Shown: positions 1 through 18,310, counted from the first letter of the stretch. The stretch: DNA of 64,000 bases from Cyanobacteriota bacterium SRBZ.bins.94.201705 (GCA_030549855.1 JAUQQP010000046.1:1-64000), one strand, 5' to 3'. Numbers and translations: made by a program. The notes: a model not told the origin generated them from the letters alone.

Positions 1-1
1 G

Positions 2-136
2 GTAATCCTCATCAAGGGGGTATGTGAATGTCCCTATGATTATGATAGTCTAGGGAGACTGTGTGGAGGTAAGTCTGCCTACAGTCGTCAGGGTGGGGAT
101 AAACCCATTTTTTGTCTGAAAGATAAGTCTAATTAG
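2..136 (+). CDS. C-terminal tail of a small Cys-rich protein (partial)
   Basis: An open frame enters from the left edge and runs 44 codons to a TAG at 134-136. The visible tail contains C-E-C-P-Y-D, then C-G-G-K-S-A-Y-S-R and a final Cys near the end. From memory this spacing (CxCPYD, CGGxSAYSRxGG) ends a family of short cyanobacterial proteins of unknown function. The Cys pattern suggests metal binding or disulfides, which is inference. The last 8 bp overlap the 3' end of menD, which is convergent. The start lies outside the window. Confidence 0.7.
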   Translation, partial: VILIKGVCECPYDYDSLGRLCGGKSAYSRQGGDKPIFCLKDKSN

Positions 137-1922
137 TGTCTTCACCAGTTGGCTGGGGGGAAAGAATATGTTTCAGACGCCAGGCATCTTTTTTCCTATC
201 GGTTTTTATCTCCCATAGGTGAATGCCATTTTGGGGTAAGTTGGATAATAATTCCCTCAGGTGGTCAAGGCTAGAAATAAATTTGTAATTGATGTTGTAA
301 CTTTGAGACAAATGTTGGAAATTAACCGACTGAGGGGTGGCAAAATAGTTTTCAAATATCTCTTGTTTGTATTGGCTTATGGGCAACATTTCAAAAATCC
401 CCCCCCCGTTGTTATTTACCAATAATATCACCAAACAGCCTTGAAAATGTGGGGTAATCAAGAAGCCATTAGTATCATGTAATAAAGCTAAGTCTCCCGT
501 CAGCAATATCGTGGGTTTTTCCTTATAGGCTATGCCCAAGGCAGTAGATAAAGTGCCATCGATGCCATTAGCTCCTCTATTATAGTAAATTCTATATTTA
601 CCACTGTTTTTTTGCCAGAAAAACTCCGCATATCTTACCGGCATGCTGTTAGCAATAAATACAGGGGTTTCTGGTGGTAGATGCTGAGAGATTAGGAAAG
701 GTATTGCGCCTTCAAAAATTTCTCCCGTCTCTTCTATTTGCCTCAACTTATTGCCAATGGTTAACTCTACCCTTTTATCCAACTTTAGCCAGGTTTCGAG
801 GTAGGAGTTTTTTTGGGAATCTAGCCCATTTTTTTTAAGTTGATTCTGGCATGCCTCCAGGAAATGATATAGGGATTTCAGATGAATTCTGAGGTGTTGG
901 GAATTGGAATGTAGGGCATCAAAATTATCGTCTTGTTCAGTAATAATATAGGTAGTTATTTTGTGGGATTCTAACCAAATTCTGAGTTGCTTACTCGTTG
1001 GATATTCCCCCAAGAGAATCACTAGCTGGGGCAACAAATCTTGGGCATATTTTGGGTGTCGGAGAATGGCATCATAGTAAGTTACCAAACGAGGGTTGAG
1101 ATGGGCATAGTTTCGGACAGGGGATAGTGCTTCTGATAAGACGGGAAATGCTAAAATTTCTGAGATAATTCTTACAGTATTGACATACAACTCGGGTGAG
1201 GGATAGGTATCAACGCCAGCAATAATAATCCCTTTTTCTGTCTGTTTCCAGAGGCTGAACCATGCTTCTAAATTTTCTGCCGATTGGCAATATTGAGGTT
1301 TAAAATTCGGGAAGTAGGAGAGTAATTTGTCGTTAATATAACGCCTTTCTGCAGGGGATATTTCTAGTGGATTAACAGGGGCCAATGGCTCGGAAAAAGG
1401 TACATTTATGTGCACTATGCCCTTACTAGGAAATTGACACCTTTCCCAGGCATAAATAATATTTTGTCGTAGGTAAAATAGACTTTCTAACTTCCAGGAG
1501 GGCTCACTCAATTCTACTTGCCAATTGGGATAATTTCCATATAAACCAACCTGATTAATAGTCTGGCCTGCATGACAATGCCTCAGGATAAATGGCCTAT
1601 CCGCCGTGAAAATAATCAGAGGCACATGACTGTATTTAGCCTCAATGACTGCCGGGAAAAAGTTTGCGCCTGCTGTGCCTGATGTACAGACTAAAGCTAC
1701 TGGTTTGTTAGTTTTTTTAGCTAGCCCTAGGGCGAAGAAAGAGGCTGAGCGCTCGTCTAAAATTGGAATAGAATTAACCCCTTTGTTTTCTGCAAAAGCA
1801 ACAGCTAAAGGGCTGGACCTTGACCCAGGACAAATAACTACATTTTCTAATCCCAGCCTTACCAAAGTTTCTACTATTAAGGAACTCCACAGTAAATTAA
1901 CATTCCGAAAGTCTAAGGGCAT
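129..1922 (-). CDS. menD: MenD, SEPHCHC synthase
   Basis: This 597-aa protein is a ThDP- and Mg-dependent enzyme that joins isochorismate and 2-oxoglutarate to give SEPHCHC, the first committed step of naphthoquinone synthesis (phylloquinone, the photosystem I cofactor, in cyanobacteria). The N-terminal isochorismate-side motif CPGSRSSPLA is at residues 31-40. NRGANGIDG is at 448-456. The ThDP/Mg segment starts at GDL (476) and ends at NNNGGGIF (503-510). Length is normal for the family. A 9-bp C run on the plus strand at 399-407 falls in the Gly-Gly-Gly codons of the ThDP motif. No strong Shine-Dalgarno sequence precedes the ATG. The gene is monocistronic as far as visible. Confidence 0.96.
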   Translation of the reverse strand: MPLDFRNVNLLWSSLIVETLVRLGLENVVICPGSRSSPLAVAFAENKGVNSIPILDERSASFFALGLAKKTNKPVALVCTSGTAGANFFPAVIEAKYSHVPLIIFTADRPFILRHCHAGQTINQVGLYGNYPNWQVELSEPSWKLESLFYLRQNIIYAWERCQFPSKGIVHINVPFSEPLAPVNPLEISPAERRYINDKLLSYFPNFKPQYCQSAENLEAWFSLWKQTEKGIIIAGVDTYPSPELYVNTVRIISEILAFPVLSEALSPVRNYAHLNPRLVTYYDAILRHPKYAQDLLPQLVILLGEYPTSKQLRIWLESHKITTYIITEQDDNFDALHSNSQHLRIHLKSLYHFLEACQNQLKKNGLDSQKNSYLETWLKLDKRVELTIGNKLRQIEETGEIFEGAIPFLISQHLPPETPVFIANSMPVRYAEFFWQKNSGKYRIYYNRGANGIDGTLSTALGIAYKEKPTILLTGDLALLHDTNGFLITPHFQGCLVILLVNNNGGGIFEMLPISQYKQEIFENYFATPQSVNFQHLSQSYNINYKFISSLDHLRELLSNLPQNGIHLWEIKTDRKKDAWRLKHILSPQPTGEDTN

Positions 1923-1996
1923 TTATTGCTATGAAAACAAATAATTTTATCCCCTAATATAGGTTAGTAAATATGCCCATATTTTAGCTTATTTAA

Positions 1997-2042
1997 CATA
2001 AAAAATCAAGGGCAAGGGGCAAGTAAGTTATAGCAATGCCCC
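1997..2042 (-). terminator. Possible terminator downstream of flv3
   Basis: On the minus strand GGGGCA pairs perfectly with TGCCCC (plus-strand arms 2016-2021 and 2037-2042, 15-nt loop). The stem is followed by a T-rich stretch ending in six T. It lies 67 bp beyond the flv3 stop. The T run starts about ten bases after the stem, so this is only a fair candidate. Confidence 0.35.
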
Positions 2043-2108
2043 AGGTTAGCAAAAAATTATAATGGTCGGTGCCGTGTCAAGAAAGAGAGGCCGACAAGAG
2101 ATATAATA

Positions 2109-3830
2109 CTAGTAGTAATTGCCTACCTTGCGGTGATGGACAGCGGTGAGGGCATCGGGTTTGGAAACACGACCGTCTGTAACCTGGCTGTAAACAATCC
2201 AATGGTCACCACAGTCCATACGACTGACTACTTGACATTCTAGGTAGGCAAGGGCATCCAGGAGAATGGGTGAACCATTTTTGGCAGTAGTGGTTTTAAC
2301 GCCGGCAAAACGATCAGCACCTGGGGGGAAACGTTTGAGAAAATGTTTCATTAAGGGTTGGTAGTTACCCTCTTCCAACACATTCAACACAAAGGTATCA
2401 TTTACCTGTAGGAGAGATTCAATAGCCCTGTCTTTGGCAACAGCTACAGTAAAACCGGGGGGATTAAAGCTGGCTTGGGCAACCCAGGAGGCTAACATTG
2501 CCCCTTTGGTATCCCCCTTCTTAGCAGTTATTATGTACAAACCCCCGCTAAGACGCCCCATGGCTTTGTCTAAGTCGGTGTTAATGGATTTGCGTTGTTG
2601 GATGGTAGCCTGTTTGGTTAACAGTTGCCCTAAGTCTACCCCTGCCTCCTCACACAGCTGATAGGTAGTCTCCTGGGGGGTTTGTTTGATGCGGATGGGG
2701 GAGAAAGCCTCTGTTAAGCCTAATTCTCTTAGTTTAACCGCTAAGGGGTCAATGGGCTCATCATCCCCACCATAGCATTCATAAAGCCCAAAATACTGTT
2801 TGCTGTTAACAGAAGCCAGGATAGTACCAATTTTATCGTTAAAGGGGGCTTTCATAGGGGGCATTCCTATAACAATCCCCACACTGTGGCTAACTATTTC
2901 CGGAATTTCCTGACTGTCTACCGCCTTCAAATCCACCATGTCTACGGTGACGCCGGTTTTGCTAATCCCCTTGGCTATGGCTTGGGAGAGACGATCACTA
3001 TAACCATAATCAGATACATAAAAGACAGTAACTATCTTATCACTCTTTGTCTGTTCAGTACTCCAACGCTGATAGCGGTCTAATAGCTCTTTTATGTTAT
3101 ACTTAAGGATGGGGCCGTGGCCGTTGGCTACCAAGGAGATTTCCCCCAACTCCTTGATTTTCTTCATGGCAGATAAAACTGAGCGGGCATTAGGCGCCAT
3201 CAAACACTGATAGTAAAAGCGGTAGTCTGCTTCTATGTCTTCCAACCGTTCGTCATACAGTGCGTCACTGCAGTAGTGCAGCCCAAACACGTCGCAGGTG
3301 AACAGAATGTTGGTCTTATGGTCGTAACTTACTATAGTGTCGGGCCAGTGGAGATTGGGGGTGTTGACAAACTCTAACACATGGCCGTTGCCCAAGTCAA
3401 GACGATCACCACTTTTAACTATTATCTTCTGGAAGTCTTGATGGACAAACCCCTCTAAGAATTGGATTGCCACTCTTGAGGCTACCACTGTAATATGAGG
3501 AGCAATTTTCAGTAATTCTTTTACTAGGCCACTGTGGTCCGGTTCGGTGTGGGAGATGATAAGATAGTCAATATGCTGGGGGTTTATCACCTGTTGGAGG
3601 GAATGGAAGTAAAGTTGTTGGAATTTGGCATGGGAGGTGTCTATGAGAGCATTTTTCTCCCCTCCTTTGATAACATAGGAGTTGTAGGTAGTGCCGTTTT
3701 GGAGGCCAAATTCAATATCAAAACGGTCTCTATCCCAGTCTAGACAACGGATGGCGGTAGTGTCGGCGGCAATGGTTTCAATTTGAGTAGTCAGACGGGG
3801 GGGATTTTTCGCCACTACTGTTGCAGTCAT
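2109..3830 (-). CDS. flv3: Flavodiiron protein, Flv3 type
   Basis: This 573-aa class-C flavodiiron protein reduces O2 to water downstream of photosystem I, probably using NADPH/ferredoxin electrons in a heterodimer with Flv1. Domain order is a metallo-beta-lactamase-like diiron domain (about 30-265), a flavodoxin domain (about 270-400) and a C-terminal flavin reductase domain (about 430-573). The canonical ligand motif H-x-E-x-D-H is intact (HTEPDH, about 94-99), with further ligands in HWPD and NGHGP. This fits the Flv3/Flv4 class rather than Flv1/Flv2, which lose these ligands. I favour Flv3, but Flv4 is not excluded because no flv2 or sll0218-like gene lies beside it. The ATG at 3830 is preferred to the in-frame TTG at 3845. 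No flv1 partner is present. Confidence 0.88.
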   Translation of the reverse strand: MTATVVAKNPPRLTTQIETIAADTTAIRCLDWDRDRFDIEFGLQNGTTYNSYVIKGGEKNALIDTSHAKFQQLYFHSLQQVINPQHIDYLIISHTEPDHSGLVKELLKIAPHITVVASRVAIQFLEGFVHQDFQKIIVKSGDRLDLGNGHVLEFVNTPNLHWPDTIVSYDHKTNILFTCDVFGLHYCSDALYDERLEDIEADYRFYYQCLMAPNARSVLSAMKKIKELGEISLVANGHGPILKYNIKELLDRYQRWSTEQTKSDKIVTVFYVSDYGYSDRLSQAIAKGISKTGVTVDMVDLKAVDSQEIPEIVSHSVGIVIGMPPMKAPFNDKIGTILASVNSKQYFGLYECYGGDDEPIDPLAVKLRELGLTEAFSPIRIKQTPQETTYQLCEEAGVDLGQLLTKQATIQQRKSINTDLDKAMGRLSGGLYIITAKKGDTKGAMLASWVAQASFNPPGFTVAVAKDRAIESLLQVNDTFVLNVLEEGNYQPLMKHFLKRFPPGADRFAGVKTTTAKNGSPILLDALAYLECQVVSRMDCGDHWIVYSQVTDGRVSKPDALTAVHHRKVGNYY

Positions 3831-3928
3831 ACTTCTTAAGAACAAATACTCATGGTTTGTTTCCCATTATAAATTCCAGCCATGGCCAATAGGGGTTAGA
3901 ATAGATTATCAGTGGTATAAGCAGAAGA

Positions 3929-4633
3929 TTAAAGATAGGGGGATACGTCTTCCTTACACTCATCGGCAAGGAAAGAAAGGGCACGAAATCTTAGAGCCAC
4001 CAACTGTTCGTATAATGGGTTTAACTTGCACATTGGGGGTATGTGGACGATTTTTTTGCCAAATAGCACAATATCCCTTTCAAAGGGGCATTGGGATGGA
4101 ATCATTTTACAGATAAAACGGGCCAAACGAGCATCTTTAATTTCTATGCCGTCTAGCCAGTGTTTTACCGGTTGTAGCAAGTCTATCCCCTTATCTTTTT
4201 CCTTCGTTTCCTCTTCCCCTTTTTCCGGATGCCACTGAGTTGCCTCCAATGCTTTCAACACCTCTACCTCTAATCCCAACGCTTCCTGAAAACTGTGTAT
4301 AACCTCTGATTCCTCTTTACTGTAAACCCCGTCGGCAATGGCTACCATAACGGCTGTGCGAAGGAAATTCTCTTTTATCTCCCTGTCATTCCCCAAGGCT
4401 TCTGCTAAAAGAGTGGGGGTTAAGGGTTGCAAATCGTCTATCCTAGTATTAGGGGCTAATTCATTCTTAGTTAGATTGGCAATAAATTCCCTCTCCTCCT
4501 CATCAAAGTGGCCATCCGCATAGGCTACAGTCAGTAAGCCTTTTAACCAGGCGGAAATCTGTTCGTCGCTGTATTGATGCCAGGTTTCTTTGGTATTGTT
4601 GTTCATAGGAAGGCTTAGTGTCATCAATAACAT
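3929..4633 (-). CDS. TerB-like plus 'Mo-dependent nitrogenase C-terminal' domain protein
   Basis: This 234-aa protein has two parts. Residues about 20-135 are helical and acidic, with two repeated patterns (AYADGHFDEEERE and AIADGVYSKEESE) typical of the TerB/tellurite-resistance fold, each with an Asp-rich metal-binding-like loop. Residues about 155-234 match the family named for a Mo-nitrogenase C-terminal region, with IPSQCPFERDI and PPMCKLNPLYEQL. That name is historical and no nif gene is in the window. The same C-terminal module occurs alone at 12076-12438. Start choice is open: ATG at 4633 or 4606, neither with a clear ribosome binding site. The molecular role is unknown. Confidence 0.8.
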   Translation of the reverse strand: MLLMTLSLPMNNNTKETWHQYSDEQISAWLKGLLTVAYADGHFDEEEREFIANLTKNELAPNTRIDDLQPLTPTLLAEALGNDREIKENFLRTAVMVAIADGVYSKEESEVIHSFQEALGLEVEVLKALEATQWHPEKGEEETKEKDKGIDLLQPVKHWLDGIEIKDARLARFICKMIPSQCPFERDIVLFGKKIVHIPPMCKLNPLYEQLVALRFRALSFLADECKEDVSPYL

Positions 4634-4671
4634 CCTGACATCATGTTAAATCAATTCCCCCCACTGGCAAT

Positions 4672-4697
4672 AAAAAAACCCACCCCGTAGGATGGGT
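4672..4697 (-). terminator. Rho-independent terminator of the SLH porin gene
   Basis: Reading the minus strand, ACCCATCC - TAC - GGGGTGGGT forms an 8-9 bp stem with a tight loop, followed directly by seven T residues. It sits 28 bp past the porin stop and before the TerB-like gene, so it probably isolates the highly expressed porin message. Confidence 0.85.
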
Positions 4698-4724
4698 AAG
4701 GCCTTGGCACCGTGTGGTATAATC

Positions 4725-6401
4725 CTAGAAGGTGAAGGTAGTCCTCAGAGTGCCAATTACCTGTTCTGCCCTTCCTCCCTGGGTTGTAGAGTTGAGCCAG
4801 ATTATACCAGGGGTGATGGATATGTTGTCATTTAACTTGTACTTGTAAAAAGCCTCCACATGGATGGGCAACTCGTTTCCTCTTACCCTCCTCAAGTCGC
4901 CAAAGTAGGGTTGGACACCAGCAAAAATACCTAATACACTCCCTTCTTTCCCTAAGTCGGGGAAGGCTATCCCTCCACCATAAGTCCAGATGTCAGTACT
5001 ACGTATACCCCGAGCAATACGAACATTCCTGTCCAAATCCACGTCAGTGTAGGCAAAAAAGCCGCTTATGCTAATACTAGGGCTAATACGCCATGCTACT
5101 TGAGCCCCATAAGAGTTGGTACGTCTGTCTCCAAAGGTGATAGGATCTGGATTACCATCCCCATCTAAGTCAAAACCTTCTAATGTCCCTAGGTTAGCAG
5201 AGGGGGTGCCTACTATGCCGCTTGTGCCACCAGCAGCAAATATGCCATTGCCATCCTTATGAAAACCCCGCACATAGGTAAAGCCAAAGGCAAGGGCATC
5301 ATTGGGATTCACGTTTATTTGGGCTAAAACGGAATAGTCGCCGTTAAATAAACCTGCACCTCTTTGGGGAGAGGCGGCATCACCCCCCGCTAAATAGCTT
5401 ACAGTAACAGTGGTAGGACCTAAAATGCTTTCTAGAAAGCCGCTGCGGTAACTGAGGGCAATGCCACTGCCGCCACCAATGCGGTATATTGGACTTTCGG
5501 AAGCAAAGGTGCTAAGGGCACCATTACCACCATCATAATCCTCAAAGAAGGGATTTAGGGTGGGCACATAGTCACTGTGAATGCCTCCAAAGGCGGGAAT
5601 ATAGATTTTTAACTCACTGTTGTCTCCCAGTTTTATCGGTGGGGCGTAGTAGGCTAGCCAGTCTACCTGTGCGTTGTTCCCATCCCCAGGGTACAGGTTA
5701 AAATTCTGAGTTAGAGTGGGGCTTCCCCCTACATAACCAAAATTGTCTATGGTAGTAAAACCATTGGCATTCCCTGCCGCCAGACGCGTAATCAGGCTGT
5801 CTTGCCCACTGAAACTAGTATTTAACACCAAACGCACACGGTTGGCAAAGATGGTTTTATTGCCGTCGTAGCCGGCATGGCTTACCCCAAAAATCGCTTC
5901 CCCTTGTAACTTAGTTGTAGTAGAAAATTGTCGGTCCTCTAAAAAGGCAACACGCCCTTCTAGTTTATCTACTTTTGCCCCCAAAGCAGCCAATTCCGCC
6001 TCAAACTCCCTTGCCAGCCGTTGTAATGTTTCCAAGTCTCCACCAGAAATGCCCCCACCGCCAGCTATTAGCCTTTCTATCGCCTGCATACAGGCATTCA
6101 AACCGGCGGCGAATTCGTAACGGCTTAAAGGGCGATTCCCTCTGAATGTCCTATCTGGATATCCTACTATACACCCATAACGCTCCACTAGATTCCTCAA
6201 AGCCTCAAAAGCCCAATCCGTGGGAGACACATCCCTTAACTGGGAAACACTCGTCACCTGTTGCTGAGTGGGTATCCCCCCCTGGATGGCATATCTCTCC
6301 ACCTCTTCAAGGGTTTGCATCTCTTCTGCCTTCACCCCACCACTGGCTAACACTGTGGCTATCACTGCCAATGGCATTAATAAACTACCTTTTGCTTTCA
6401 T
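4725..6401 (-). CDS. SLH-domain OprB-type outer-membrane porin
   Basis: This 558-aa protein starts with a basic, hydrophobic signal peptide ending near A-S-G-G-V-K-A. An S-layer-homology domain follows (about 45-110; DVSPTDWAFEALRNL, GYPDRTFRG, LSRYEFA), then a short coiled coil (about 115-155), then a beta-rich OprB domain to the C-terminal Phe, the usual outer-membrane barrel ending. The SLH part is thought to bind peptidoglycan-linked polysaccharide, and the barrel conducts small solutes and inorganic ions. Some cyanobacterial members are annotated as iron-uptake porins. The ATG at 6401 has a good GAGGAAAAAG ribosome binding site, so it is preferred to the GTG at 6413. A strong terminator follows the gene. 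Confidence 0.93.
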   Translation of the reverse strand: MKAKGSLLMPLAVIATVLASGGVKAEEMQTLEEVERYAIQGGIPTQQQVTSVSQLRDVSPTDWAFEALRNLVERYGCIVGYPDRTFRGNRPLSRYEFAAGLNACMQAIERLIAGGGGISGGDLETLQRLAREFEAELAALGAKVDKLEGRVAFLEDRQFSTTTKLQGEAIFGVSHAGYDGNKTIFANRVRLVLNTSFSGQDSLITRLAAGNANGFTTIDNFGYVGGSPTLTQNFNLYPGDGNNAQVDWLAYYAPPIKLGDNSELKIYIPAFGGIHSDYVPTLNPFFEDYDGGNGALSTFASESPIYRIGGGSGIALSYRSGFLESILGPTTVTVSYLAGGDAASPQRGAGLFNGDYSVLAQINVNPNDALAFGFTYVRGFHKDGNGIFAAGGTSGIVGTPSANLGTLEGFDLDGDGNPDPITFGDRRTNSYGAQVAWRISPSISISGFFAYTDVDLDRNVRIARGIRSTDIWTYGGGIAFPDLGKEGSVLGIFAGVQPYFGDLRRVRGNELPIHVEAFYKYKLNDNISITPGIIWLNSTTQGGRAEQVIGTLRTTFTF

Positions 6402-6638
6402 CTTTTTCCTCACACCTCATCTCATCCTACGATTGTCCCATACTATTGTCTCCTGTCTCCCTTTTCTGTCCTTTTTGTTACCATTTCTTAACCGTATCAC
6501 AACCTTTTGTTAACCCCCCGGCTAATCCCTCCACCCTCTTGTCTCCCTCTACATGCCCTTGCTTATACTATATACTTAGGATGGGCCCATTCCAGCCTCA
6601 TTCACTGTTTCTTCTTCGTGGCGGACTACTGTTTTATT
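6402..6638. promoter_or_regulatory. Divergent promoter region, porin / repeat protein
   Basis: This gap separates two divergent genes. On the plus strand a -10-like TATACT at 6564-6569 lies 19 bp after TTGTCT at 6539-6544 and is a plausible promoter for the downstream large gene. The region is strikingly C/T-rich on the plus strand. An in-frame upstream extension of the large ORF (from 6507) crosses this promoter and is unlikely to be translated. Confidence 0.45.
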
Positions 6639-9600
6639 ATGGCAAAACCAGAATTTTCCCTCTCCCTCGACAGTCATTTTATTTCTCGTTTTTATCCTTT
6701 TTCCCCTCTTCAGATTTCTACCTTTGTTGAGGCAGTAACTGCTATTATAAAACGGAATTTACCTCAGCTGCCAGATATTTTTTTTCAGAAAAAATTGGCC
6801 GTTTTTATTATCTGTGATGACGGGGGTATCCTGGTAGTCACTATCCCCTCACAACCTCCTCTATTGAAAGTAGTTGATTGTTTTCCTGTTGACAACTTAG
6901 AAACCATAAAACAGTCAATTGCTAACCTTAATCTCTCCATTGAGGATTCTATCAGTGTCTCTGCTTCAAACCCCGGCGTTTCTCTTTCTAAACTTCTCCC
7001 CAATGACATCAATTTATCCCCCGAAAGAATCCAACAAAACCCTAATGACTTCTTCTGTGAATTCGTCGGCTGTCAAGGGGAAATAAAGCCTATAGTAGTC
7101 TCGCCACAACAACAGCAAATACTTCACAAAAACCCTCCTCTACCCACAATTGTAACCGGGGAAAAAGGCAACGGCAAAACTACTACCGCCCTTCTCTCTG
7201 CTATTATCCAAGCTGACAAAATCTCATCTCAATCCGGCGCCAAAATTCTCTATCTTTCCCCCAGCCTAGCCGCCACCAATGCCGCTAAAAAACTAGTTCA
7301 ATATTACGGCTTCGCCCCGCAAATATCTGTTTTTGAATATGTGACACTCTGCCAGAATCTTCTCAGCAAATATCACCTTATCTTGCCTAAAAAATTTCTT
7401 GCCCAAAGACGCGCCACCTATGCTAAGTTTGTAGAATTCTTTTTCAAAGACAAAAAGATTTTCTCCGTCAAACCAGAAGATTTGTGGCAGGAAATTAGAG
7501 GCAACCTCAAGGGTTGTCTTAAGAGTATTGACAGGGAAACACCCCTTATCTCCCTAAACGAATATTTGGCCTTGAAAAACCAAAGTATTTTCCCAAAAAA
7601 CACAGATTTCTCCCTTGTCTATAATCTCGCTACCCAGTATCAAGAATGGTTGGAAACACATAATTATTGGGATGATTTGGATTTAACCCACTATCTGTTG
7701 AGTCAATTACCTAAAACTTTCCAAGGGGAGTATGATGCTATTTACGTAGACAATGTAGAAATCCTGACAGAAATCCAAATAGAGTTTCTCTTAAAACTTC
7801 TCACCAAAAACAACAACGAAGGAGAGAATCTGCCTCGCTTCTTTTTTGTGGCTGATACTAACCACCAGGGAAAAAATGACGGGGTAAATAGGCTTAAAAA
7901 GCTACTCATTGACACCTTCCATAAACTTCCTTCCTGGCAACAAATTAGAAAGTCAATTGAAAATCAGACGCTAAGTGTTAGTTTCCTTGCCCATAAGAAT
8001 CTTGTCGACTTCAAGTCAGTAATAAGGGAAATAAGAGGCATTAAAATTGAATCCTCCTCCTTCATCAATTCCCCCGTTAAACCCCTGGTAATCTCCGATA
8101 TTAGCATGGATTTTCTCAAAAGCCAATCCTCTTTAAATCTTGACTCTGCTATTGTGGTTTTTGATGAGGGAGAAAGAGAAAATCTCATAAGCCTTTTTCC
8201 CCACGACAGCGAAAGAATAATCTCTTTCTCCCAAGCCAAACACCTCCAATTTGAACAAGTCTTGGTATGGAAGTTGTTTGATAATGTTGAACAGTCAGAA
8301 ATCACCGTAAATTCCGAGAAATATCTGCGTCTTTTAACCTGTGCCAATATGGCGCGCCACAGAATATTCTTCTATGACAACACTAACGATTCCCTCTGGG
8401 ATAACCCCAAAATTGCCTCCGTCATAGAAATTGGCTACGAAACAGAATTGACTCCTATTTTTAACAGAAATTATACCCCGGAGGAAGTTGAAACAATCGT
8501 AGACAAATACCTTGAATTCGAAGCCGAAGAGTGTTATAAAATAGCCGAGCAAATCTGCCAAAAAACCGCTAATGAAACCCTGTTAGACAAAGTGTACGCC
8601 TTCTGGGAAGAAACTAAAGGTAATTATGGCAAAGCCGGAGACTTGTGGAATAAACTAGGCTTTTTCCAGAAAGCCATCGACTGTTGGCAGGAAGTTGACG
8701 AAAAATTATGGTTAGCCAAATGGTCAGTTTTAGATAAGGAAGAATGGCAAAAAAGAGGAGAATACTTCGAGGCAATTCAAAATTTGACCTTGGCTAATTT
8801 TTGCTATGAAAAATCCGAGGATTTTGAAGGGAGGTTAAGATGTCTTGAAAAGAACAATCAGTGGGAGATTGCCGGAGATGAATGTTTACAAAAAAACCTG
8901 GAAGAAAGGGCTAATAAATACTACCAAATGGCAGAAGAATATTATCGCCAAAATGACCAAATCAATCTGGCTGTTAAAATGTGGACAAAGTTAAATAAAT
9001 GGGATAAAGTTGCCACCATTTGGGAAGAATTACAACAGTGGGAAAAAGCCGGCAACTGTTGGCAAAAACATGGGGATGTAGCTAAAGCCGCAGTCTGTTG
9101 GCAGAAAGCCAAAAAATGGACAGAAGCCCAAAAATGCTGGCTTGAATTAGGAAACTGGCGAGAATTAGCCTTATCCTACGAATACCAGGAAAATTGGACT
9201 CTTGCAGCCGAAACTTGGCTTAAATTGGGAGAAAAGGAAAAAGCTGCCTTCTGTTACCAAAAAGGCAATCAATGGCAAGCCGCAGAAAATCTCTGGCGAG
9301 AATTGGGATACTGGGGATTCGTCGCCATCTGTCTCCAACAACAGGAAAAATGGCTGGAAGCTGCAGAGGCTTGGAATAATACTAACCCCTACGAGTTACA
9401 AGCCTTGTGTTACGAACGTGCTTCCGCCTGGGATAAGGCAGAAAAAGCCTGGTTGCAGACGAAAAATTGGACTAGAATCATCATCGCCTGCGAAAAACAA
9501 GGAAAATGGCAAGAAGCCGCCGAAAGTTGGGAGAATTTGGGGGAATGGCAAAAAGCTGCCGCCGCCTGGGAAAAAATAGGGCAAATAGAGAAGGCAGCCA

Positions 9601-10544
9601 TTTGTTATGAAGCCGGAGAAAACTGGGATAAAGCCGCCTTATGTTGGCAAAAAATCAATAGAATGGACAATTTTGCCCTTTGTTTACAAAAACAAGAAAA
9701 ATGGGAGGAAGCCGCCGCCATTTGGGAAAAATTAAAACAATGGCAAAACGCCGGCAAAGCCTGGGAAAAAGTGGGTAACCTAGAAAAGGCTGCTACCTGT
9801 TACGAAGAGGGAGGCTACTGGCGGGAGGCGGAAGATTGTTGGTGGAGGTTAGAAAATTGGGATAGGATGGAAATTGCTGCACAACGTCAGGGGAAGTGGC
9901 AAAAAGCCGCCTGTAATTGGTTGCGACTAAAACAGTGGGAAAAAGCCGCCTTATGTTATCAAGAATGTGAAGATTGGGAAAGGGCTGCCAAATACTGGGA
10001 ATTAGCCGGCATTTGGGATAAAAGTGCCCAGGCTTATGAGAGACTAGAAAAATGGGATAAAGCCGCCAGTAATTATTTGAAGGCGGGGGATACTGAAAAA
10101 GCCGCCATCTGTTTTGAAAAATGCCAAGACTGGGAAAAGGCACAACAGTGTTGGCGTAAATTATGGAAATGGGATAGACTCGCCCTAGTGTGTGAATACC
10201 AACAAAAATGGCAGGAAGCCGGTAAAGCCTGGTTATCTGCCGGCAATGTGGAAAAAGCTGCTATTTGTTTTGAAAAATGTCAAGACTGGCAAAAGGCAGA
10301 AGAATGTTGGCGACACCTCAACAACTGGCAAAAACTAGCTGAAGTTTGCGAATACCAAGGAAAATGGGAAGAAGCCGCTTTTTGTTGGCAATTTCTCTCT
10401 CGCTGGGAAAAAGCCGCCTTAGCCTGTCTCAAAATGGATGATTTAGAAACCGCTATCAAATACTACGAAAAAGGTGGTTACCTGGAGGAGGCGGAAAAAT
10501 GTCGACTACAACTTCTGGCAAAACAAGCCAAAGAAACCTCTTGA
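6639..10544 (+). CDS. SF1-helicase-like domain fused to Trp-rich TPR-like repeats
   Basis: This 1301-aa protein has two halves. Residues about 155-590 look like a UvrD/Rep-type NTPase: a Q-rich segment, Walker A GEKGNGKTT (174-182), Walker B-like DAIYVDN (366-372), a motif III-like FFFVAD, a motif V-like SQAKHLQFE (about 531-539) and a motif VI-like LLTCANMARHRIF (about 565-577). Motifs Ia and IV are not obvious and the usual DEAQD is absent. Residues about 655-1295 hold about thirty imperfect 19-20-aa repeats of the form W-x-x-A-A-x-C-W/Y-x-x-x, a helical TPR/SEL1-like solenoid rich in Trp, Lys, Ala and Glu. The ATG at 6639 is preferred over the in-frame codon at 6507. The gene is monocistronic. 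Function is unknown; a nucleic-acid motor or sensor with a protein-binding scaffold is inference. Confidence 0.85.
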   Translation: MAKPEFSLSLDSHFISRFYPFSPLQISTFVEAVTAIIKRNLPQLPDIFFQKKLAVFIICDDGGILVVTIPSQPPLLKVVDCFPVDNLETIKQSIANLNLSIEDSISVSASNPGVSLSKLLPNDINLSPERIQQNPNDFFCEFVGCQGEIKPIVVSPQQQQILHKNPPLPTIVTGEKGNGKTTTALLSAIIQADKISSQSGAKILYLSPSLAATNAAKKLVQYYGFAPQISVFEYVTLCQNLLSKYHLILPKKFLAQRRATYAKFVEFFFKDKKIFSVKPEDLWQEIRGNLKGCLKSIDRETPLISLNEYLALKNQSIFPKNTDFSLVYNLATQYQEWLETHNYWDDLDLTHYLLSQLPKTFQGEYDAIYVDNVEILTEIQIEFLLKLLTKNNNEGENLPRFFFVADTNHQGKNDGVNRLKKLLIDTFHKLPSWQQIRKSIENQTLSVSFLAHKNLVDFKSVIREIRGIKIESSSFINSPVKPLVISDISMDFLKSQSSLNLDSAIVVFDEGERENLISLFPHDSERIISFSQAKHLQFEQVLVWKLFDNVEQSEITVNSEKYLRLLTCANMARHRIFFYDNTNDSLWDNPKIASVIEIGYETELTPIFNRNYTPEEVETIVDKYLEFEAEECYKIAEQICQKTANETLLDKVYAFWEETKGNYGKAGDLWNKLGFFQKAIDCWQEVDEKLWLAKWSVLDKEEWQKRGEYFEAIQNLTLANFCYEKSEDFEGRLRCLEKNNQWEIAGDECLQKNLEERANKYYQMAEEYYRQNDQINLAVKMWTKLNKWDKVATIWEELQQWEKAGNCWQKHGDVAKAAVCWQKAKKWTEAQKCWLELGNWRELALSYEYQENWTLAAETWLKLGEKEKAAFCYQKGNQWQAAENLWRELGYWGFVAICLQQQEKWLEAAEAWNNTNPYELQALCYERASAWDKAEKAWLQTKNWTRIIIACEKQGKWQEAAESWENLGEWQKAAAAWEKIGQIEKAAICYEAGENWDKAALCWQKINRMDNFALCLQKQEKWEEAAAIWEKLKQWQNAGKAWEKVGNLEKAATCYEEGGYWREAEDCWWRLENWDRMEIAAQRQGKWQKAACNWLRLKQWEKAALCYQECEDWERAAKYWELAGIWDKSAQAYERLEKWDKAASNYLKAGDTEKAAICFEKCQDWEKAQQCWRKLWKWDRLALVCEYQQKWQEAGKAWLSAGNVEKAAICFEKCQDWQKAEECWRHLNNWQKLAEVCEYQGKWEEAAFCWQFLSRWEKAALACLKMDDLETAIKYYEKGGYLEEAEKCRLQLLAKQAKETS

Positions 10545-10926
10545 TTCCCCAACAATCCCCTTTAAATTTCTTAACAAACGCCGAAAAAAGGCCGCGTTTT
10601 CTGCTACAATGGGTACGTGGGAGGGCAGGAGAGGTGACTGCCAGGGGCGCACCTGGGCACTTTCTTATTGAGATATAAAATCATCTATTGGAGGTATTTA
10701 TTTGCCAATATATCCTCCCATGGCGACTAGTTCTGAAGCGGGGGGATATTGCTAAAAAATATCAATTGACTATTATAAAAAATTTATAGGATTGATTACA
10801 ATACATGAAGGGAGACAAGACATAAACAGCCGGGGGGAAAGAGGAGATGAAAGTGGATGGAGAGTCAAAGGGGGAATAAAAAAGTAGTCCCGTTTTTGGC
10901 AGAATCGTTTTTGACAAAGAGGAAAA
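10545..10926. other. 382-bp stretch without an assigned gene; possible short RNA or peptide
   Basis: This is the longest non-coding stretch between convergent genes here. It holds a weak AACGC/GCGTT hairpin followed by TTTT near 10578-10601 and a -10-like TACAAT at 10605-10610. A G-rich stretch with a CCAGG/CCTGG hairpin (10641-10656) follows. GGAGG at 10690-10694 is placed 7 bp before a TTG that opens a 17-codon frame (10702-10755). The GGAGG can pair with CCTCC at 10714-10718. The remainder (10756-10926) is AT-rich then G-rich, with no coding signal I can support. Confidence 0.5.
10702..10755 (+). CDS. Possible 17-codon peptide ORF
   Basis: TTG-initiated frame encoding MPIYPPMATSSEAGGYC, preceded by a full GGAGG at 7-bp spacing. 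An internal ATG lies at 10720 and TAA at 10753-10755. A candidate -10 element lies about 95 bp upstream. There is no family I recognise. It may be a leader peptide or chance; the only support is the ribosome binding site and its sequestering hairpin. Confidence 0.25.
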   Translation: MPIYPPMATSSEAGGYC

Positions 10927-11805
10927 CTAGCCGATAACCACTTTAGGTTTGAGGGTGTAGGGTTTTTCCCTTAGTCTCTCACTGATGCCTATAAATTGCC
11001 GCTGGTGATTGTAAGTGCGGAAAATGTTTCCCTCTTTTCCTATTTCCTTTTCCAGTTTTTGTCCTTTTAACCATCTTTCGGCTTCTCGTTTCTCCAGGCA
11101 AATAGCCGGCAAATTTTCCAGGGGTTTGTCTATGTCTATTAACTCCAATATTCCCTGTTTATTTTGCTCATTTATTTCCTCTATAGTGAGGCTATCTTCT
11201 ATTTTCATTCCACAGCTAAGTGTCCTTTTTAAACCGGCTAAAGTAGCTCCACAACCCAGTTTTTCTCCTAAATCCCTAGCAATAGACCTTATATATGTTC
11301 CTGCGTCACATACTATGTTTAAATCTATTTCAGCCTCCTCCTGACGCCATTTCAAAATCTCAATCGACTCAATGAATACCTCTCTCGTAGGCACTTCTAC
11401 TTCTACCCCTTTACGGGCTAAATTATACAACTTTTGGCCGTCTTTTTTGATAGCACTAAAAGCGGGGGGTTTTTGCTGAATAACACCAATAAAATCTTTT
11501 AGGTGGGATTGGATGTCTTCCAAAGAGATATTGACAGTGGCAGCATTTCTTATTACCTCCCCCTCTAAATCATCAGTGGTAGTCACTATCCCGAATTTAA
11601 TAGTAGCTATGTAAGCCTTCCTTGTAGGCAGAAACTGTAAGAGACGAGTCGCCTTGCCAATGGCGATTGGTAATACGCCTGTAGCCAAGGGATCTAAAGT
11701 GCCACCATGCCCTATTTTCCTGGTATTAAGGATTTTCCTCAATTTGGCCACACAATCATGGGAGGTGAAGTTTGCCGGCTTATTCAGGTTAAGGAAACCA
11801 TCCAT
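10927..11805 (-). CDS. truB: tRNA pseudouridine-55 synthase TruB
   Basis: This 292-aa enzyme isomerises U55 in the T-arm of nearly all tRNAs. The N-terminus NLNKPANFTSHD and the catalytic block GHGGTLDPLATGVLPI (about 33-48, catalytic Asp in T-L-D-P) are intact. The RNA-binding KPPAFSAIKKDGQKLY segment is near 112-128 and AGTYIRSIARDLG near 168-180. A C-terminal region of about 60 residues replaces or mimics a PUA-like extension. The gene is convergent with the large repeat protein, separated by the 382-bp stretch. Confidence 0.96.
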   Translation of the reverse strand: MDGFLNLNKPANFTSHDCVAKLRKILNTRKIGHGGTLDPLATGVLPIAIGKATRLLQFLPTRKAYIATIKFGIVTTTDDLEGEVIRNAATVNISLEDIQSHLKDFIGVIQQKPPAFSAIKKDGQKLYNLARKGVEVEVPTREVFIESIEILKWRQEEAEIDLNIVCDAGTYIRSIARDLGEKLGCGATLAGLKRTLSCGMKIEDSLTIEEINEQNKQGILELIDIDKPLENLPAICLEKREAERWLKGQKLEKEIGKEGNIFRTYNHQRQFIGISERLREKPYTLKPKVVIG

Positions 11806-12075
11806 TGGCTTTTCCCCCAGAATATGACTATAAATTCAGTCTTCCGGAATTAGTCTACAGGCAAAACCCCATATGTATAAATCATATAACCTTCGTGTAA
11901 ATATAGGGTAATATTTTCCTTCTCTGGCGTAAAAACCGAATAAAAAATTGCTACCATTTTCTTGTTGAGTTATATAATAAAAGTTGGAGACAAAAATCCC
12001 CCTGGGAAAGGGTGGGAATGGAAGATGGTGGTAGGGGGCTTTGTCTCAAAATCTTGGATAAGGGAGATTTTCCTC

Positions 12076-12438
12076 ATGGGAATCACAGACTATCTCTTTT
12101 CAGAAATATTCCTTCAAAATCCTCATAATCCCAATTATTTCCCCCTAGGAAATAGGGGTTTTTTGCAGCATATAGGCAGAATAATTAGGCGCTTCGACCC
12201 CTTCTTACCTCTGAGGAAATGGATAGATAGTATCCAGATTAAGGATGAAGAAACCGCCAGAAGAATTGACAAACTGATCCCCTCTCAATGTCCTTTTGCT
12301 AGGGAAATTAGGTGTTTTAACCGTACCATCCTGAAAATACCTCCCCTTTGTAAATTAAACCCCCTCTATGAGAATCTTATGGCCTTAAAATTCCGCGCCC
12401 TCTGTTATCTAGAATCTCAAAGAGAGGGGAGACAGTGA
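12076..12438 (+). CDS. Small stand-alone 'Mo-dependent nitrogenase C-terminal' domain protein
   Basis: This 120-aa protein is nearly all one domain. I-P-S-Q-C-P-F-A-R-E-I and P-P-L-C-K-L-N-P-L-Y-E-N match the C-terminal half of the protein at 3929-4633 almost residue for residue, including both Cys. The ATG at 12076 has an AAGGGAGA ribosome binding site at good spacing and is preferred over TTG 11962 or ATG 12025. Despite the family name, I see no nitrogenase context. The conserved Cys pair suggests a metal or redox site, which is inference. Confidence 0.78.
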   Translation: MGITDYLFSEIFLQNPHNPNYFPLGNRGFLQHIGRIIRRFDPFLPLRKWIDSIQIKDEETARRIDKLIPSQCPFAREIRCFNRTILKIPPLCKLNPLYENLMALKFRALCYLESQREGRQ

Positions 12439-12445
12439 CCAGAGG

Positions 12446-12468
12446 CAAAAACGCCCCCGCAAGGGGGC
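12446..12468 (-). terminator. Terminator between the small Cys-pair gene and tkt
   Basis: GCCCCC at 12453-12458 pairs with GGGGGC at 12463-12468. On the minus strand the stem is followed by GTTTTTG, so it serves tkt. The stem could also stall plus-strand transcription but lacks a plus-strand T run. Confidence 0.75.
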
Positions 12469-12481
12469 ACCTAGCATTATT

Positions 12482-14488
12482 CTAGCCTAAAAGGGACTTG
12501 GCTTTGGCATAAACATTGTCCACCGTAAAGCCGAATTTTTCCATCACCACACTGCCTGGTGCGGAAACCCCAAAGCAGTCGATACCGATGGCAATACCCT
12601 CATCCCCAATATAACGCTCCCATCCCCAGGTGACACCTGCTTCCACAGACACCCGTTTTTTCACCGCCTTGGGCAGCACAGACTCCTTGTACTCCTCGTC
12701 TTGGGCTTCAAATAGCTCAATACAGGGCATGGAAACCACTCTTACCTTTACTCCCTCTGCCCTCAACTTTTCGGCTGCCCCCACACACAGGGCCACCTCA
12801 CTGCCAGTACCTATCAAAATAATATCAGGGGTTTCCTCGCCGCCAGAGAGAATATAAGCCCCCTTGGCTACCCCTTCTATAGAGGTACCGGCCAAATTGG
12901 GTACATTTTGACGACTCAAGGCTAACAGGGAGGGTTTGTTTCTGGTTTCGATGGCTACCTTATAGGCGCCAGAGGTTTCATTGCCGTCAGCGGGGCGGAA
13001 TACATACAAGTCGGGTATCAGACGCAAGGACATCAAATGCTCGATGGGTTGGTGGGTGGGGCCATCTTCTCCCAAGGCGATGGAATCATGAGTCATCACC
13101 CAGATTACATGGGCTTGTGATAGGGCTGACAGCCGGATGGCATTCCTCATGTAATCTGTAAATACTAAAAATGTAGCTCCATAGGGAATAAGTCCACTAC
13201 GGTGTAAAGCAATACCATTACAGATAGCGCCCATGGCATGCTCTCTAACGCCGAAGTGGATATTGCGGTTGTGGTAGGCCCCCTTTTGGAAATCCCCTTC
13301 ATGGTGAATCTCTGTGAGGTTGGAGTGGGTTAAATCCGCTGAACCTCCCATTAGTTGGGGCAATACCTTGGCAATGGCATTGAGGCAGATTTCCGAGTGT
13401 TTACGGGTGGCAACGGGTTTATCCTGTGGGGTATAGCGGGGTAGACAGTCTGCCCAGTTTTCAGGGAGTTTACCATGGAGAATATTCTCAAACTCCTCTG
13501 CCTCGGCGGGATACTTAGCCTTGTAGGCGGCAAAGGTTTCTTCCCATTCCGCCTGGAGACGGGCGCCTCTTTCAATGGCCTTGCGGCAGTGCTCATACAC
13601 CTCTTCTGGTACTACAAAAGGCTCGTAATCCCAACCCAGATTCTTGCGAGTAAGGGCTACCTCCTCTGCCCCTAAGGGCGCCCCATGGACTCCGGCTGTG
13701 TTAGCCTTATTGGGGGAACCATAGCCTATGGTAGTGGTAATCTTGATAAGGGAGGGCCTATCGGTGACTGCCTTAGCATTTTCTATCGCCCTAGCAATCC
13801 CCTCCAGGTCTGTATTTCCGTCTGGCACATGTTGTACATGCCACCCATAGGCCTCAAACCGCTTACATACATCCTCTGTGAAGGCTATATCTGTAGACCC
13901 ATCTATCGAAATATGATTGTCGTCATAAAGTGCTATAAGTTTACCTAAGCCCCAGTGGCCGGCGAGGGAGGCCGCCTCACCGGAGATACCTTCCATGTTA
14001 CAACCGTCCCCCAGGAGAACATAAGTGTAGTGGTCTACGATTTTACAGTCCGGTTTGTTGTAGCGGGCAGCCAGGTGGGCTTCTGCCAAGGCCAATCCCA
14101 CCGCATTAGCAATGCCTTGCCCCAAAGGCCCAGTGGTAACCTCTACCCCCGGTGTCATGAAGTTTTCTGGGTGCCCTGGGGTTTTAGACTTCCACTGCCG
14201 GAATTGCTTGATGTCCTCTAGGGTAACACTGTCGTAACCGTACAGATGCAACAAAGAATATAGTAACATGGAGCCATGCCCCGCCGACAGCACAAAACGG
14301 TCACGGTTGAACCAGTTGGGGTTTTTGGGGTTGAACCGCAGGAAACGATCCCATAATACAAAGGCCATAGGTGCCGCACCCATTGGTAGGCCAGGGTGTC
14401 CTGATTTGGCTTTCTCCACTGCGTCTATAGACAGAAAACGAATGGCATTGATGCACAACTGTTGGATTGACTGGGCTGCAACTACCAT
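12482..14488 (-). CDS. tkt: Transketolase
   Basis: This 668-aa ThDP enzyme interconverts ketose and aldose phosphates in the Calvin-Benson and pentose-phosphate cycles. The N-terminal [12 protein letters not shown], the catalytic-His region AGHGSMLLY and the ThDP/Mg motif GDGCNMEG...YDDN (about 157-190) are present. The central pyrimidine domain shows [13 protein letters not shown] and [15 protein letters not shown], followed by a C-terminal domain. Length is typical. A good terminator follows. Confidence 0.97.
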
Positions 14489-14639
14489 AGTCAGTTTGTT
14501 TCTACTTTCTACTGTTAACTGTTTATCTTCTCATTCTTTCGGATGGAGCGCAACTTGTTTCCCCATCACCTTGCTGGATTATTATACGCCCTTCCAACTA
14601 CCACAAAGGGGAACTTTTTCGTCAAATCAGCAACATTTT

Positions 14640-14668
14640 TTTACAAACTCTTAAGCTAGACTTATGGA
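14640..14668 (+). promoter_or_regulatory. Candidate sigma-70 promoter of the cupin gene
   Basis: TTTACA (14640-14645), a 17-bp spacer and TATGGA (14663-14668) lie 37 bp before the cupin ATG. The fit is fair. The rest of the 216-bp divergent gap with tkt shows no other gene. Confidence 0.4.
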
Positions 14669-14704
14669 AAATAACAACTGCAGGGAAAAGGCAAGGCAAA
14701 GAAA

Positions 14705-15145
14705 ATGGGTGTTAAAGGCAACAGGGTGGTAATCCGCCAACTGGAATCCATCCAGGGAGGCATGTCCTATTTTTATACACCTCAATCCAGCCACGAAACC
14801 ATGCTGGTACAAATACCCCCCCATAGTGTGGATGATTTGTTTGTACACCGTTTTCAGACTGATCAGCTACTGGTGGTGAGAGGGAGTTTTGTGTTAGTAG
14901 TATTGGAAAATCGACGCTATGAGTACATCTATTTAAGCGAAGACAAGCCCCAGGTGGTAATAATCCCGCCAAAAATCCCCCATGGCGCCATCAATCCCAG
15001 TGATAAACCCTGTTTTTTGGTTAATGCCGTGTTGCGTCACGGTAAGCCCAATCCCAAAGACTATCAGCCTGTGAAAAAACCTTTCCCCTATGATTTACAG
15101 CAGGTTTTGAAACTCTCCAATTCTCAGACAGTCAGTCTCAGCTAA
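14705..15145 (+). CDS. Cupin-fold protein (RmlC-like)
   Basis: This 146-aa single-domain beta-barrel has the cupin pattern of alternating short strands, with two conserved blocks: QIPPHSVDDLFVHRFQTDQLLVVRGSF (about 37-62) and IPPKIPHGAINPS (about 86-98). It resembles the dTDP-4-dehydrorhamnose 3,5-epimerase-related cupins common in cyanobacteria. Substrate is unknown, and one His pair plus Asp/Glu may bind a metal. The stop overlaps the convergent DUF1823 gene by 8 bp. No sugar-nucleotide operon surrounds it. Confidence 0.75.
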   Translation: MGVKGNRVVIRQLESIQGGMSYFYTPQSSHETMLVQIPPHSVDDLFVHRFQTDQLLVVRGSFVLVVLENRRYEYIYLSEDKPQVVIIPPKIPHGAINPSDKPCFLVNAVLRHGKPNPKDYQPVKKPFPYDLQQVLKLSNSQTVSLS

Positions 15146-15497
15146 TCAAACCCAGTAGCCAGTTAGCAATAGTAGCACGTCTAGCATCTCGGGGGGTAAA
15201 TTCCCCAATTTTATAGCCTTTGAAACCTAGTTTCTCCTTTAACAGTTGCTTCTTTTCGGGGGGGATGGAGCGAGTCAATTTTACCACGGGGGGACGATTA
15301 GCGATAAAATCTGGTGGGGTGGGGTATTCTTTCTGCCAACTCTCTTCTACCATAGTGGTATCCCATTTTCCTGTTTCCTCGTCATAACGATACCCCAAAT
15401 AATACCAAGCCAATTGATTCACCGTTTCGTCGTCTATTTCTTCCTTCAGAATGCCCCAGATAGTCTCTTCTGTGAGTGGTGGCAGGTTTTTTAACAT
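15138..15497 (-). CDS. DUF1823 family protein
   Basis: This 119-aa protein begins LPPLTEETIWGILKEEIDDETVNQL and carries WYYLGYRYD, the block LTRSIPPEKKQLLKE and GFKGYKIGEF. I recognise this as the DUF1823 family of cyanobacteria and plastid-bearing eukaryotes. The function is unknown. It is soluble with no signal peptide. It overlaps the cupin gene tail to tail and is divergent from the RHH gene across a 254-bp regulatory gap. Confidence 0.82.
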   Translation of the reverse strand: MLKNLPPLTEETIWGILKEEIDDETVNQLAWYYLGYRYDEETGKWDTTMVEESWQKEYPTPPDFIANRPPVVKLTRSIPPEKKQLLKEKLGFKGYKIGEFTPRDARRATIANWLLGLIS

Positions 15498-15751
15498 TCC
15501 ATTAACCTCCCTGAAACAAAATCCGAACTATCATTGTAATTGACTTTTGTTTCTGCCAACCAGAAGATTAATGTTACTGCCAACCAGAATAAGACTACTA
15601 ACCACTGTCACCGTGGTGGTGGAGTGGCAGTCTCTCTCTAAAATGTAAAGAATTATTACAAAGATGCCAGAAAAATGGGAAAACGTCTTGACAGGAGAAA
15701 GAAAAAGAGTTAAAGTAGAGACATCGCACCTGGGCAGAACAAACAGCAAAT
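15498..15751. promoter_or_regulatory. Divergent intergenic region with direct repeats
   Basis: This gap lies between DUF1823 and the RHH gene. It contains two perfect 13-bp direct repeats, CTGCCAACCAGAA at 15553-15565 and 15577-15589 (24 bp start to start). An ACCAC/GTGGT inverted repeat is near 15601-15620 and a TGTAA-N7-TTACA palindrome near 15645. The plus-strand promoter is listed separately. A long minus-strand open frame through this region (15531-16151) is a shadow of the RHH gene. Confidence 0.5.
15688..15716 (+). promoter_or_regulatory. Sigma-70-type promoter of the RHH-AAA cluster
   Basis: A perfect -35 TTGACA (15688-15693), a 17-bp spacer and TAAAGT (15711-15716) give a predicted start near 15723, about 30 nt before the RHH ATG. 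The pair is well formed and oriented with the cluster. Confidence 0.6.
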
Positions 15752-16090
15752 ATGCAAGAAAGGCAAAAAGTGACCCTTTATCTACCACCTTCGTTACATC
15801 GCCAACTGAAAATAAAAGCGGCGATAGAAGGGGAGTCCATGTCTGCTTTGGTGGAAAGGGCCATAGGCTTTTACCTCGGACACCCGGAAGTGGTAGAAGA
15901 GGTAGAGGCGGCATATGGCAAGACACACCAAGTGCATATATGCCCCGAATGTAATGCCGCAATGGTATTAAGGGATGGAAAGATGGTATCCCTGAAAAAC
16001 CAGCCCACTGTGGTGGAAGAGGAACTACCACTGTTGGAGAAGGCGAACACTGTTGCCCCAGACGCCTCAGGACAGTTGCTGCCCTGTTAG
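15752..16090 (+). CDS. Ribbon-helix-helix protein with CPxC tail
   Basis: This 112-aa protein has an N-terminal ribbon-helix-helix fold (residues 4-45): a strand KVTLYLPPSL, then helices LHRQLKIKAAIEGESMSALVERAI. This is typical of MetJ/Arc-type DNA-binding dimers. The C-terminal part has H-I-C-P-E-C near 62-67, a single zinc-knuckle-like pair, then an acidic and Pro-rich tail. It probably binds DNA as a dimer, and the 13-bp direct repeats upstream are an obvious autoregulatory candidate (inference). The gap to the AAA ATPase ATG is 87 bp. The layout resembles the Synechocystis slr0373-slr0374 stress-responsive cluster, from memory and unchecked. Confidence 0.75.
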   Translation: MQERQKVTLYLPPSLHRQLKIKAAIEGESMSALVERAIGFYLGHPEVVEEVEAAYGKTHQVHICPECNAAMVLRDGKMVSLKNQPTVVEEELPLLEKANTVAPDASGQLLPC

Positions 16091-16177
16091 CAGCCCCAGA
16101 GGGAGTTGGTTGACAAGGCCAGCCCCATAGGTCCACCGTCTTTTGAACCACTGCCGAATACTGTTGAGGTAGAGCCC

Positions 16178-17701: not shown

Positions 17702-17705
17702 CAGG

Positions 17706-17743
17706 CTTTCTCTGTAACGGAGAAAGGTTAGCCTCGCGCTAAC
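17706..17743 (+). promoter_or_regulatory. Two tandem hairpins between AAA and DUF1257 genes
   Basis: CTTTCTC (17706-17712) pairs with GAGAAAG (17720-17726). Directly adjoining, GTTAGC (17727-17732) pairs with GCTAAC (17738-17743). Both stems are perfect, with 7- and 5-nt loops. No T run follows either, so they look more like an mRNA processing or stability element than a terminator. Confidence 0.5.
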
Positions 17744-17800
17744 AGTTCTACTTGCCTTTTAGTTGATTGTTTGTTGTCGTTATAATAGGAGGAAAGTCCC

Positions 17801-18151: not shown

Positions 18152-18184
18152 TGCCGCCCTTTAACTGACCATAAGTGCCTTGTA

Positions 18185-18222
18185 GGGGTTAGTCAACGAG
18201 GAGTTGATTAGCCCTTTTTTTT
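18185..18222 (+). terminator. Strong rho-independent terminator after DUF1257
   Basis: GGGG-TTAGTCAAC pairs with GTTGATTAGCCC (one bulge, two G-U pairs) around a 5-nt loop and is followed at once by eight T residues. Confidence 0.88.
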
Positions 18223-18310
18223 CTCTTTGTGGGGTTTTCGTGGAAAACACGGGGAACTATCCCAGGTTAAAAGCGTTATACTTATTGTGGATGGAGATGT
18301 CAAGAGCCGA

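Follow-up and report, generated by a model that had tools for sequence, protein, structure and literature searches.

The locus and its gene

The window (the whole stretch of DNA analysed, 64,000 nucleotides at JAUQQP010000046.1:1-64000 in assembly GCA_030549855.1 of Cyanobacteriota bacterium SRBZ.bins.94.201705) is part of contig C4 of a 2.87-Mb genome, and the window gene is the sole copy there. We distinguish three parts in its product: a probable degraded RelE/YoeB-like domain, a predicted UvrD-type core and a long predicted solenoid of 13-residue Trp-rich helices (Table 1). The preliminary description of this gene had joined a motor-like domain to a repeat scaffold, an arrangement that we also find, but it had missed the third part, the N-terminal ~110 residues. 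An ordinary UvrD/PcrA of the same genome is encoded on contig C48, which rules out the gene as the cell's main UvrD.

The gene has a porin gene on one side and truB on the other, each on the opposite strand and named from reading its translation. Neighbours change from genus to genus: the porin gene and truB, a gene of AarF type, dnaJ and rsgA, or a gene for a Ser/Thr kinase (names from sequences). Comparison of the flanks of window-type copies revealed no neighbour conserved across genera, and an operon partner was rejected for this reason. There were no evident defence genes among the neighbours and no phage match. A scan of the genome contigs with the single protein returned one weak locus, Rfam had no match within positions 1-20000 of the window and NCBIfam none on the window protein. 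No PADLOC model matched over the whole protein; the best match was GajB (1.6e-4 over 59 residues). In agreement with the initial statement that no function is assigned, we found no dedicated role for the protein, nor did the literature searched contain a description of a RelE-UvrD-solenoid architecture. Two related ORFs, at 3929-4633 (-) and 11962-12438 (+), also flank the gene; both end in an SQCPF...PP.CKLNPLYE domain, which we take to be like the Mo-dependent nitrogenase C-terminus, and further members of their cluster occur close to two longer degenerate copies (L050 and L055).

Table 1. Features of the window gene, with positions counted from the first nucleotide of the window. Degenerate copies, n = 22; canonical relatives, n = 18.
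Feature	Position	Strand	Basis or conservation
Whole gene, 1301 aa	6639..10544	+	Single open frame, ATG 6639 to stop 10544
Alternative start GTG, eight codons upstream of ATG	6615	+	
Probable degraded RelE/YoeB-like domain, N-terminal ~105-110 aa	6639..6953	+	Model topology, profile links
UvrD/PcrA-type SF1A core, about aa 148-600	7080..8440	+	PF00580, profile to PcrA, Foldseek
Walker A GEKGNGKT, aa 174-181	7158..7181	+	G174, G179, K180 kept in 22/22 degenerate
Motif II DNVEI, aa 371-375	7749..7763	+	Walker B D371 kept in 22/22 degenerate
Motif III ADTNH for GDPxQ, aa 405-409	7851..7865	+	Q409 in 2/22 degenerate, 18/18 canonical
Leu450 at the arginine position of motif IV	7986..7988	+	Arg in 0/22 degenerate, 18/18 canonical
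Motif V KHLQF for KGLEF, aa 534-538	8238..8252	+	Aligned motif
Met571 at the arginine position of motif VI	8349..8351	+	Arg in 0/22 degenerate, 18/18 canonical
Solenoid section with less regular helices, about aa 614-787	8478..8999	+	Helices in both models; strongly conserved among orthologues
39 indel-free 13-residue units, aa 788-1294	9000..10520	+	Self-identity, unit alignment, model

The head has a predicted SF1A helicase fold

When the head was searched alone, the Pfam UvrD-helicase family (PF00580) matched residues 156-408 (E 2e-5). The preliminary description had set SF1 similarity beyond the P-loop as a test, and a profile of 27 relatives matches PcrA (6e-11) and UvrD1 (5e-10) over several stretches, outside the P-loop too. 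Structure prediction, likewise proposed there, gave a model of residues 1-654 with a pLDDT of 87 and a pTM of 0.87, with which Foldseek retrieved HelD, UvrD1, UvrD, Rep and PcrA (TM-scores 0.3-0.47, lowest E 4e-12). Membership of the head in SF1A is well supported by this predicted fold. The protein shares with UvrD, Rep and PcrA the fold of residues 150-600, Walker A, the Walker B Asp and the order of the motifs. Unlike them, it lacks the catalytic Glu, the arginine fingers, the motif III Gln and motif V, and it adds the N-terminal domain and a giant solenoid.

Selective decay of the helicase motifs

We compared the motifs of 22 degenerate copies, 12 of them of the window type and 10 of a longer type, with those of 18 canonical relatives. 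The Walker A sequence is good, as had been reported from the start, and G174, G179, K180 and D371 are present in all 18 canonical copies as well. Seven further residues (W283, I286, K291, G292, Y309, D345 and D348) are likewise invariant in the degenerate copies. Motif II, in which the canonical DEAQD had rightly been found wanting, has decayed around its Asp: the degenerate copies retain E372 in 1/22, Q374 in 2/22 and D375 in 0/22, whereas all three residues are present in 18/18 canonical copies. The window protein has N, E and H at the positions of the motif II Glu, the motif II Gln and the motif III Gln, respectively. Parts of motif II survive in two window-type copies, L054 (DELHK) and L034 (DDVQE). 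Motifs V and VI, described earlier as plausible SF1 motifs, are in the right places but are degenerate, and motif V is mostly lost among the 22 degenerate copies.

These residues mark the head as a degraded helicase, with its binding residues kept and its coupling residues lost. The Walker A motif and the Walker B Asp (4-5 residues) suggest that it can probably bind nucleotide with Mg2+. Because the catalytic Glu, both arginine fingers, the motif III Gln and motif V are gone, the head probably has neither a useful rate of hydrolysis nor movement on nucleic acid. The label 'motor-like' therefore suits the UvrD/PcrA-type fold but not the residues for hydrolysis and translocation. The core has a dN/dS of 0.10, indicative of purifying selection, so residual or unusual activity is possible.

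A probable RelE-derived N-terminal domain

The N-terminal part of the head model opens with a beta-alpha-alpha arrangement, after which come three strands and one helix; this is the order of elements in RelE/ParE toxins. In hhalign, the N-terminus of the window type matches that of the canonical relatives with 97% probability (E 1e-11), and that of the longer type does so with 93%. The best PDB sequence match of the canonical N-terminal profile is 1wmi_A, matched along nearly all of its length with a weak E of 0.016; we take 1wmi to be the archaeal RelE-RelB complex (aRelE). Pfam YoeB_toxin (PF06769) matches the relatives L058 (4e-4) and L057 (1.5e-3), both below the curated cut-off. Single-sequence phmmer matches to YoeB were mixed with triosephosphate isomerase and were excluded as proof. 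RelE ancestry of the domain is probable. What the domain has in common with RelE/ParE/YoeB toxins is the predicted topology of residues 1-110 and the profile link through the canonical relatives. It differs in being fused, in having kept neither of the positions at which an Arg and a His are conserved in the canonical RelE-like domains, and in that no antitoxin-like gene is seen adjoining the window gene. A search of the same genome with the RelE-like profile returned nothing, missing even the window's own decayed domain, and so says nothing about other RelE copies. The RelE-like domain of the longer degenerate type looks better preserved than that of the window type.

A predicted solenoid of 13-residue helices

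The motif W-x-x-A-A-x-C-W/Y originally recognized in the C-terminal half is present, but its period is 13 residues rather than the 19-20 first given. Self-identity peaks at lags 13, 26, 39 and 52 (z 10-17, being about 12 at 13, 14 at 26 and 17 at 52) and z is about 2 at lags 19-20, so the longer period is rejected by autocorrelation; a spacing of 19-20 equals 13 plus the internal W1-W8 spacing. There is no peak at 34, the length of a TPR unit. Instead of about thirty repeats we count 39 indel-free units with the consensus W-E/D-K-A-A-x-C-W-E-K-L-G-x. They contain 51 Trp in 507 residues, with Trp at unit position 1 in 29/39 and at position 8 in 20/39.

A model of residues 590-1301 (pLDDT 88) consists of 10-residue helices joined by 3-residue turns, about 50 helices in all; its pTM is 0.45, a low value of the sort that long rods can give. 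According to this model the region is an alpha-helical solenoid with a presumed packing direction. The head and the solenoid were modelled separately, and their mutual packing lies outside either model. The chain of short helices with small/aromatic packing resembles the solenoids of TPR, clathrin repeat and IFT-A/WDR35 proteins, and the repeat sequences match TPR_2 (E 5e-11) and IFT144 (E 4e-7). Unlike TPRs, the units have 13 residues (26 per hairpin) rather than 34, run to 39 without indels and contain about 10% Trp. The repeats of the canonical cyanobacterial UvrD-helicase relatives are shorter and less regular than those of the window protein, with spacings of 13/26/30/43 residues, or are ordinary 34-residue TPRs. 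Beyond the family, G038 alone among the sampled relatives has a solenoid match with E < 1e-10, and there too the head is of UvrD type.

Distribution, descent and selection

The window type is present in 15/15 sampled genomes of the family, although the copy is split or cut by contig ends in G010 and G013 and has in-frame stops in G002 (G002:C177). The longer type occurs in 11 genomes of the family and the canonical type in 3. The longer type is broken in G007 (G007:C1:1142577-1143488), where it is cut to about 304 aa. Elsewhere (L035, L038, L040, L047, L049, L050, L053 and L055) it measures about 1660-1790 aa and has up to 79 13-residue units.

In a tree of the core, all 22 degenerate copies of both types form one clade (support 95/98), which lies beside canonical paralogues of G004, G006, G007 and G038. 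The tree thus supports descent of the window protein by duplication from a canonical RelE-UvrD-solenoid protein. Two such relatives, WP_146297469 (Euhalothece pEu1) and WP_015205634 (Crinalium pCRI9333.06), have the same order of RelE/YoeB-like domain, UvrD core and helical repeats and are annotated as 'UvrD-helicase domain-containing protein'. Unlike the window gene, both are plasmid-borne, lying beside ParA, and on the Euhalothece plasmid also near ParB, a VapC-type toxin and a 3'-5' exonuclease; WP_146297469 keeps the canonical motifs that the window protein has lost. In a further cyanobacterial branch (L060-L070, from G016-G052), the proteins measure about 820-1600 aa, their DEAQD-type motifs are intact, and they have an N-terminus of another kind, which may also be RelE-like.

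Compared with orthologues outside the genus, the window protein is 34-48% identical over the core and 55-65% over the solenoid. Canonical pairs, for which the comparison comprises four sequences, have 63-65% in the core and 50-51% in the solenoid, or 43-45% and 33%; a close pair (L045/L037) has 94% and 96%. The solenoid is therefore far better conserved than the head in the degenerate copies, whereas in the canonical ones the relation is the opposite or near parity. Relative to the same-genus copy, dN/dS is 0.46 for the RelE-like domain, 0.10 for the core and 0.05 for the solenoid, ratios that are approximate because dS is near 1 and close to saturation. A pseudogene is rejected by the values of 0.05-0.10 together with the presence of the gene in all 15 genomes. 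The solenoid units are also fixed in position, with 38/39 best matching their own position in the orthologue within the genus and 23-29/39 in those further out, which rejects variable, recombining repeats.

A proposed nucleotide-gated scaffold and its alternatives

We propose, with a probability of about 0.58, that the window protein has evolved from a RelE-UvrD-solenoid protein into a scaffold that binds ATP, is deficient in hydrolysis, is gated by ATP or GTP and holds its partner or partners on the solenoid. After duplication of the canonical protein, hydrolysis would have been lost and nucleotide binding kept. Binding of ATP or GTP would close the two RecA-like lobes and set the geometry between head and solenoid, and the solenoid would hold one or more specific partners. 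The strongest selection now falls on the solenoid, with each unit fixed in place. The fold, the motif loss, the reversed conservation and the distribution are supported by computation; nucleotide binding, absence of hydrolysis, gating and partner binding are inferred. AddB and RecC are likewise inactivated helicase subunits whose fold is kept for binding after loss of the motor. These act in a heteromer with nuclease domains, of which we found none here; ADDB_N is a sub-threshold Pfam match of the window protein.

The same conservation could arise if the solenoid worked alone, for example in assembling a large complex, with the head as a folded cap or dimerization module and its Walker residues kept for stability. 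The solenoid is indeed the best-conserved part, and the nearest structural and sequence neighbours of its repeats are scaffolds, with IFT-A, Ski3, Ctr9 and clathrin as PDB matches. However, the TM-scores of 0.05-0.27 mean that these matches indicate an 'alpha-solenoid' only, and no close PDB relative was found. K180 and D371 are moreover invariant in 22 widely diverged heads in which the catalytic neighbours changed freely, a pattern that structure alone explains poorly. We consider nucleotide-independent action unlikely.

Still less probable is an active but unusual NTPase motor with substitute residues, perhaps acting on RNA polymerase or ribosomes as HelD does. HelD is described as an RNA polymerase recycling NTPase with an SF1-type core that works on a protein machine and with two long arms (PMC7749165, PMC7749167). 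It was the first fold match of the head, with which it shares a helicase-like SF1-type core, and the kept P-loop and Walker B Asp and the purifying selection on the core would suit a motor. However, the rmsd to HelD across the aligned segment is 18.9 A, no closer than the match to UvrD, no HelD-type arms were identified in the head, HelD has no such solenoid, and there is no evidence that the window protein binds RNA polymerase. The catalytic Glu and both arginine fingers have also been lost without one consistent replacement: residue 372 is N, G or D, and positions 450 and 571 hold mixed residues.

The 'sensing or conflict-type machine' of the preliminary description, or more specifically a defence effector with the RelE-like end as a ribosome-dependent RNase, the head as trigger and the solenoid as sensor, is the least probable reading, for although the Arg and His of the canonical domain, the plasmid sites beside ParA/ParB and VapC and the PADLOC matches (mostly to GajB-type and other UvrD domains, in the window protein and its relatives) speak for it, the window type has lost both residues, occurs in every genome of the family with ordinary, non-conserved neighbours and units free of recombinational variation, and the GajB matches reflect the shared UvrD fold. 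A conflict flavour fits the ancestry better, given that the canonical relatives have a RelE/YoeB-like domain and that some are plasmid-borne, with ParA/ParB and a VapC-type toxin next to them.

If the nucleotide-gated scaffold is the correct reading, the protein would be a clear-cut example from nature of an SF1 motor that lost hydrolysis and has kept nucleotide binding, and canonical sister genes in some of the same genomes would allow direct comparison. It would also mean that a toxin-like, partly plasmid-borne architecture gave rise to a gene retained throughout a cyanobacterial family. The solenoid would, in addition, supply a very long 13-residue helical repeat, minimal and free of indels, of use in repeat-protein design. 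More tentatively, and with more doubt than confidence, there may be a lineage-wide class of nucleotide-gated pseudo-helicase scaffolds from a toxin-motor fusion, whose two degenerate branches, one of about 1300 aa and the other of about 1770 aa, would after duplication have kept nucleotide binding, lost hydrolysis, acquired fixed solenoids with as many as about 79 13-residue helices of equal length and become a core cellular structure in the family.

TRANK1-type eukaryotic proteins resemble the window protein in domain layout, combining a UvrD-like core with helical repeats (TPR/ankyrin) in one long chain. UvrD-helicase/ankyrin proteins of Shigella and E. coli plasmids match the helicase part, aligning with about 70% of the query at 25-27% identity.
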